Shown here piece by piece: positions 3,761 to 47,412 of a DNA stretch of 64,000 nucleotides. The translations under genes and the position numbers were made by a program. Numbering within the stretch: the stretch's first letter is position 1; every line of letters starts with the position of its first letter. The stretch is from Candidatus Nanopelagicales bacterium. GTDB taxonomy: Bacteria > Actinomycetota > Actinomycetes > S36-B12. The stretch spans positions 1-64,000 of the forward strand of contig JAGYJJ010000002.1 in assembly GCA_018402235.1 (NCBI GenBank), written 5' to 3'. The notes under the pieces are model-generated. The model had not been told where the DNA came from. It made no database searches and worked only from the letters and a program-made list of their open reading frames with translations.

Positions 3761-3880
3761 CCCGCGAACCTCCCCGCCTGGGCCATCGAACCTCCCCGCG
3801 CCCAACGCCGAACCGCCCTGCAGGGCGGTTCGGCGCGCTGGGCGGGGAGGTTCGATGCGCTGGGCGGGGAGGTTCGCGGG
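3761..3880. repeat. Nested inverted repeat (family B, copy 1) built from GAACCTCCCCG / CGGGGAGGTTC units
   Basis: CCCGCGAACCTCCCCGCC...TCGAACCTCCCCGCGCCC...CCGAACCGCCCTGCAGGGCGGTTCGG...GGGCGGGGAGGTTCGA...GGGCGGGGAGGTTCGCGGG. Confidence 0.9.
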
Positions 3881-3899: not shown

Positions 3900-4770
3900 T
3901 TAGGAACGGGACAGCGGGGCGTCCATCAGGATCGGGTTGAGGTCGGCTCGCTTGGCCTGCAACTGCTCGCGCATCTGGGCATTGAGCGCCTTGCGCTTGC
4001 GCCAGGCCACGAACTGCGCGATCAGCACGATGGACAAAGCGATCAAGAACACCAAAGTGGCGAGAACATTCACCTGAACCGGGATGCCCCGCTGGGCGGC
4101 ACCCCAGATATAGATCGGGAACGTGACCAGCGTGCCGGCGTTGAAGAAGCTGATGATGAAGTCGTCGAAGCTCAACGCGAAGCCCAGTAGCGCGGCACCG
4201 GCGATACCGGGGGCAACCAGCGGCAACGTGACGTAGCGCAGGGTGGCCCGAGGGCTCGCATACGAGATCTTGCGCCGCTTCCTCTAGCGCCGGATCCATT
4301 CCCTGCAAGCGCGCTTTCACCGCTACCACCACGAACGAGATGGTGAACATGATGTGGGCGATAACCACCGTGGTCTGACCGAGTGGGAACGTGAGATTCA
4401 AGAACAGCGCAAGCAGGCTGGCACCCATCACGACGTCGGGTGTGGACATGGGCAAGAAGATCAACAAATTGGTGGTCTGCCGGCCCTTGAATCGATAACG
4501 AACAAGCGCAATCGCGATCATGGTTCCCAGCGTGGTCGCAACGAGGGTAGAGATAAGTGCGATGCGGATACTGATCATGAAGGAATCGCACACCGCCTGG
4601 ACGCCGCAAATATTGGTCCAAGCATCGAGACTGAATTGATTCCACTGGGTGTTGTAGTCGCTCCTGGGCTTGTTGAAACTCAGGACCCCTACCACCGCAA
4701 CGGGGACGAAAAGGTAGACGAGAACGAGAATCGCCACAACTGTGAGCAGGTGCTTTCGGATGAATCGCAT
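3900..4770 (-). pseudogene. potC: Spermidine/putrescine ABC transporter permease PotC, interrupted by a one-base frameshift at about 4263
   Basis: N-part in ORF 3637..4770 (MRFIRKHLLTVVAILVLVYLFVPVAV...ALEEAAQDL) continues in another frame as YASPRATLRYVTLPLVAPGIAGAALLGFALSFDDFIISFF... (ORF 3900..4226). Confidence 0.85.
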
Positions 4771-47172: not shown

Positions 47173-47299
47173 TGCTGCTTCTCTTCTCTGCAAGCGCCAC
47201 AAGTCGCCCACGGTTAGGTGGAGTGGTGTGCCCTCATGCGTCCCTTGTGGCAGACATCGGGCGAAGGTGTCGAAGGCTCACAAGTCTGCCACACCCGCA

Positions 47300-47412
47300 C
47301 GAACCTCCCCGCCGGGGGCCGCGAACCTCCCCGGCGAGGACATCGAGCCTCCCCGCCGGGGAGGCTCGATCAAACGCCCGGGGAGGTTCGAAGAGCCCGG
47401 CGGGGAGGTTCG
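47300..47412. repeat. Nested inverted repeat (family B, copy 2)
   Basis: CGAACCTCCCCGCCGGGGG...GCGAACCTCCCCGGCGAGG...ATCGAGCCTCCCCGCCGGGGAGGCTCGAT...CCCGGGGAGGTTCG...CCCGGCGGGGAGGTTCG. Confidence 0.9.

Follow-up and report, generated by a model that had tools for sequence, protein, structure and literature searches.

Like the arrays reported here, the REP and BIME elements associated with RAYT (TnpA-REP) in E. coli and Pseudomonas are dispersed, intergenic, located behind genes and grouped in palindromic clusters, and some REPs supply stop codons (PMC3733652). They differ from our arrays, whose units are non-palindromic and which are mostly direct at a 22-bp pitch, another word taking over at the same positions in sister species; in addition, the Y1 transposase domain (Y1_Tnp, PF01797) was found in 0 of 10 genomes of the genus (assemblies 70-94% complete), with positive controls in E. 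coli and four others. The DNA uptake sequences (DUS) of Neisseriaceae likewise come in dialects, a species-specific word occurring genome-wide with inverted pairs near terminators, but they number thousands of copies, also within genes (PMC3630211), whereas here 91 copies lie in phased arrays with almost no single copies. Short, mostly intergenic tandem arrays are also formed by the G-rich heptamer repeats of Xanthomonas and Nostoc, which favour the sense strand 0-50 bp past stop codons (PMC4692102); unlike our arrays, these have a 7-nt period and quadruplex-forming G runs, with neither a core/spacer division nor a 21/22-bp pitch. The TAACTGA direct repeats of Beggiatoaceae resemble ours in forming many dispersed, short intergenic direct-repeat sets, but most of them precede a start by a few nucleotides, and they have a 7-nt unit and use one word across phyla (PMC4679880). 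Prokaryotic satellites are intergenic tandem repeats in families, and the portion of that source consulted here describes no 22-bp, stop-adjacent, core-conserved families (PMC6749651). No description of 22-bp stop-adjacent arrays was found in the literature searched, which took in few subscription papers.

We analyzed a window, that is, the whole stretch of 64,000 nucleotides, in which the palindrome at potC was resolved into six CGAACCTCCCCG-type units, three forward and three inverted, at a strict 22-bp pitch. The features at this locus are as follows.

3765-3776, plus strand: core unit A (CGAACCTCCCCG)
3787-3798, plus strand: core unit B, 22 bp on from A
3809-3820, plus strand: inner unit C (CGAACCGCCCTG)
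3821-3832, minus strand: inner unit C', abutting C and carrying two substitutions identical to those of C
3843-3854, minus strand: core unit B', sense to potC
3865-3876, minus strand: core unit A', sense to potC, 23 nt past the potC stop
3900-4770, minus strand: potC, in two frames in the assembly (about 4770-4246 and 4262-3900), stop codon at 3900

The units thus start at 3765+, 3787+, 3809+, 3821-, 3843- and 3865-, with spacings of 22, 22, 12, 22 and 22. The initial annotation had described a five-part symmetric array, A-B-(CC')-B'-A', of about 120 bp behind potC. This array is real, with all six units placed and arms 85% complementary across 60+60 nt; the extent is now corrected to a core of 3765-3876 built from a 12-nt unit. 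Folded as RNA, it reached -116.5 kcal/mol (z = -11.6 relative to shuffles). The potC gene itself is frameshifted, since a tblastn search with the intact PotC of a sister species matched two frames overlapping at 4246-4262; potC is intact in relatives, and the split is either a pseudogene or an assembly error. At potC of the sister species G005, only a direct array was found, in sense orientation. Because the sister's array is plain direct, the cruciform is dispensable: palindromes come and go, and the sense array after the stop stays.

The second array of the window (47300-47412) lies behind trmD and has the architecture of the first, with spacings of 22, 22, 13, 22 and 22.

47300-47311, plus strand: core unit A
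47322-47333, plus strand: core unit B
47344-47355, plus strand: inner unit C (CGAGCCTCCCCG)
47357-47368, minus strand: inner unit C', carrying the matching substitution
47379-47390, minus strand: core unit B', sense to trmD
47401-47412, minus strand: core unit A', 3 nt past the trmD stop codon
47416-48117, minus strand: trmD, the gene ending at this array

The shared architecture had been recognized in the initial annotation, which called this copy sequence-diverged; that is true of the spacers, whereas the outer core units are identical to those at potC, and differences are confined to the spacers and inner units. As RNA, the trmD array folded with z = -8.7 relative to shuffles. With up to two mismatches, CGAACCTCCCCG matched the window 24 times (11.7 expected), a number reached by no shuffle, and no Rfam 15 family matched the window at the gathering score. 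The trmD array was absent from 8 of 8 genus mates when the stretch behind the stop was compared by eye; in these genomes a conserved stretch upstream of rplS comes next, without an array. An inverted repeat, TGTGGCAGAC...GTCTGCCACA, at 47246-47293 of the window, upstream of rplS, is conserved in the genus mates and is possibly a leader or promoter. A similar repeat, AAGTCTGCCACACCCCG / CCTGCCACACCCCG, adjoins the arrays of L057 and of G005 L166.

To place these two copies in the genome (2.2 Mb in 5 contigs, 94% complete), further copies were searched for genome-wide. Exact CGAACCKCCCCG cores numbered 91, only one of them outside arrays, while the reversed control gave 1; they make up about 21 dispersed, intergenic arrays, so that the dispersed repeat class proposed for the two window copies was borne out, as was its tie to gene 3' ends by the stop adjacency given below. 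About six arrays are 3+3 palindromes, and the remainder are direct, with 3 to 10 units at a 22-bp pitch. Information content in the palindromes is 1.74 bits per core position and 0.47 per spacer position. From copy to copy the spacers are unrelated and the units differ in number and orientation, without the single whole-element consensus and terminal inverted repeats of a MITE. Nor does the unit resemble that of REPs, which is an imperfect palindrome of 20-40 bp, as CGAACCTCCCCG is not self-complementary; and a 12-nt core with 10-nt, often identical spacers differs from the repeats of about 24-48 bp and the unique, similarly long spacers of CRISPR arrays. In many direct arrays the spacers are identical within one array, and certain spacers are found again in several places (CGTGGACCGT at three loci), so that duplication and a degree of exchange do take place. 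Direct arrays folded as RNA no better than shuffles (z from -1.8 to +0.1), and the hairpin is therefore not the feature that unites the class; what is common is core, pitch and place. Inner units of the palindromes vary together, a change on one side being mirrored on the other (permutation P = 0.004), consistent with base pairing or with correction of the palindrome as it is replicated.

We then examined the position of the arrays relative to genes, with gene ends taken from a codon-usage gene caller built for the analysis and the names potC, trmD, valS and clpX assigned by eye. Across the 28 arrays of this genome and two sisters, the array end lay within 7 nt of a stop codon in 18 (9.9 expected), a count reached in 0 of 20,000 simulations that placed each array randomly within its own intergenic gap, and none of the 28 lay within 7 nt of a start codon. 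The commonest junction has the form stop-CCG-CGAACC. Half-arrays within 7 nt of a stop were more often sense than antisense (9 vs 5 here and 7 vs 2 in the sisters), a modest difference. Not all arrays follow stop codons: three lie between divergent genes (L060, L071 and L065:5038), and one of four units (L064:4044-4121) lies inside the ORF of a PutA-like protein, whose frame remains open throughout, just behind the aldehyde dehydrogenase domain, the last Pfam domain of that protein. Arrays away from stop codons, in divergent gaps or in this ORF, count against a role at gene ends. In three species, the array behind the gene that ends at L061:5227 is found 3' of a strong hairpin resembling an intrinsic terminator, and thus cannot be equated with the terminator itself. 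Pfam assigns most of the genes beside arrays to housekeeping functions, including an iron-sulfur succinate-dehydrogenase-like subunit, a PASTA kinase, a PALP enzyme, a LeuA-like protein and an aldehyde dehydrogenase, and no mobile gene was present among those scanned.

In the sister species, the same loci carry other words. As a 22-bp pair with up to 3 mismatches, CGAACCTCCCCG occurred in no other member of the genus. Arrays of G005 and G008 use the word CGAACTTGC at a 21-bp pitch, and those of G004 use CGAAAGGGCAC at 22 bp. Based on flanking-gene comparison, array-bearing loci of this genome host 13 of the 15 fetched G005/G008 arrays, corresponding to 11 loci (three of the 13 come from G008, two of these at loci also counted for G005), and both G004 arrays. 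The shared loci are:

valS/clpX (palindromes in both species), SDR/aldehyde dehydrogenase and EamA/LacI
ABC-transporter end and binding-protein end (two arrays), LeuA-like, potC, kinase and methyltransferase
iron-sulfur subunit/2-hydroxyacid dehydrogenase and PALP enzyme

The sister arrays show the same division between core and spacer (1.97 vs 0.80 bits); they were found by word, and loci with yet other words would escape. Assemblies of the relatives are fragmented, with contigs broken at arrays, and several sister arrays sit at contig ends. G006 has no array at the SDR/aldehyde dehydrogenase site, and no comparable phased arrays of at least three units were present in the 271 kb of G006 and the 92 kb of G010 that were sampled. 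These comparisons show that the word was replaced between sister species while the positions were conserved. Such a change at all loci could have come about by a joint change of the sites and their putative protein, by gene conversion or by biased uptake. Outside the array class, contig L143 of G004 carries at 4479-4647 a 74-bp tandem repeat containing GATCGCTTCGCTC.

The explanation that we favor, with a probability of about 0.42, is that the arrays are sites of a putative sequence-specific, orientation-sensing DNA-binding protein and form a boundary at the ends of transcription units. A DNA-binding protein is suggested by the near-fixed core, the free spacers and the pitch of two helical turns: as in phased binding-site arrays, a conserved core (1.74-1.97 bits) alternates with a free spacer (0.47-0.80 bits) at helical spacing (pitch 21 or 22). 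The nearness of stops and the excess of sense half-arrays point to a role at gene ends. The putative protein, with DNA rather than RNA as its target, would line one face of the helix with one site every two turns (21-22 bp), and the arrays would serve as 3'-end marks for about 20 genes or gene pairs. A palindrome would then represent two facing half-arrays, arising from convergent genes or by later duplication. Bound protein may stop or insulate RNA polymerase leaving the gene, even past an intrinsic terminator; a boundary at the transcription-unit end is the most likely function of the arrays, and our best guess is a polar boundary or insulator. The paired changes of the inner units are a point against binding by such a protein, which does not require them.

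If such a protein exists, its recognition word would have changed between sisters (CGAACCTCCCCG, CGAACTTGC and CGAAAGGGCAC) while the places stayed; because the words differ and the places are kept, putative protein and arrays must then have changed together. One might extend this to a family of gene-end marking systems in actinomycetes, in which the putative protein would bind helically phased arrays past stop codons, and protein and all arrays would switch word between sisters with the marked positions fixed, a fast-turning, genome-wide DNA code, although we consider this generalization doubtful. If bound by a protein, the arrays would constitute a new type of boundary for the ends of bacterial genes, and the word switch at kept positions would be a natural experiment on a protein and dozens of sites changing together. 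Even if the arrays are neutral, kept positions with genome-wide replacement of the core in closely related species need a mechanism of concerted evolution, of which no bacterial description was found in the literature searched.

An element acting at the RNA level, namely a terminator or a barrier to 3' exonucleases that works as a hairpin in palindromes or as an RNA-binding-protein site in direct arrays, would agree with arrays lying 3-4 nt past stops, with the commoner sense orientation, with the folding of the palindromes (z of -8.7 and -11.6) and with the symmetric changes of their inner units. We nevertheless consider it unlikely, given that direct arrays, which do not fold, stand in place of palindromes at orthologous loci, that unstructured RNA would not be expected to keep a 21/22-nt pitch fixed between random spacers, and that some arrays lie between divergent genes. 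Features of an intrinsic terminator are incomplete as well, a hairpin being present in palindromes only and no T run following the window arrays. The initial annotation had suggested an mRNA 3'-end processing element; a 3'-end RNA hairpin cannot be the general mechanism, because direct arrays are unfolded, the potC array of the sister is direct and the L061:5227 array lies beyond a strong terminator-like hairpin in three species. Neutral satellites, expanded by slippage and homogenized by gene conversion across loci with gene 3' ends merely tolerated, would explain the spacers identical within many direct arrays and the recurrence of CGTGGACCGT. However, conversion should homogenize spacers, while palindromes and several sister arrays keep the exact core between unrelated spacers, and arrays adjoin stops more often than their random placement within the same gaps would give; we regard this origin as rather improbable.

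The arrays are intergenic, multi-copy and partly palindromic, and the trmD copy is missing from relatives at an otherwise alignable site, as would be expected of REP/BIME- or MITE-like repeats dispersed by a transposase preferring gene ends. This origin, also raised in the initial annotation, did not hold up and is highly unlikely, as the ten genus genomes gave no Y1_Tnp match, no mobile gene was among the scanned flanking genes, most arrays are direct with spacers unrelated between copies, and positions are common to species with different words. Replacement of words at kept positions would be a natural outcome for DNA uptake sequences with species dialects spread through biased uptake, and Neisseriaceae offer a precedent for both dialects and inverted pairs near terminators (PMC3630211). 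Such sequences number hundreds to thousands, mostly outside arrays, and with 91 units here, one of them outside the phased tandem arrays, this explanation is scarcely plausible. Two further candidates were rejected. Tn7-like ends were considered from the 22-bp spacing, but the genes bordered by inverted pairs of arrays roughly 1 kb from each other (L061 and L065) are ordinary. LexA half-sites (CGAAC) were also considered; the facing half-site four bases on is missing.

Finally, we investigated the occurrence of such arrays beyond the genus. In G435, from another family of the class, CGAACTTGCAGGGTTTGGTCGC is repeated at 22 bp beginning 4 nt past a stop, and a second family (CGAGTYGCCCA..TTGC, 22 bp) follows stops at gaps of 0, 3 and 6 nt. 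Stop-adjacent 22-bp arrays of similar pattern are present in at least one further actinomycete family. Among viral contigs, two of the words had no matches, and CGAACTTGC gave 25 single pairs, which are probably chance. A scan of all genomes returned 15 matches and, with the 22-bp pitch fixed beforehand, is uninformative on pitch in general. Chance as the source of these matches was rejected, as about ten of the 15 sit in longer arrays of 22-bp period, found in Streptomyces, Plantactinospora, Kocuria and MAGs labelled Caulobacteraceae and Ruminococcaceae. Long 22-bp arrays of the GCGAACCAMMYCGGTGAGC type were also observed in MAG 6_bin.52 (L126:2459-2742 and L119:5331-5653), and one array of this MAG begins 1 nt past a called stop.
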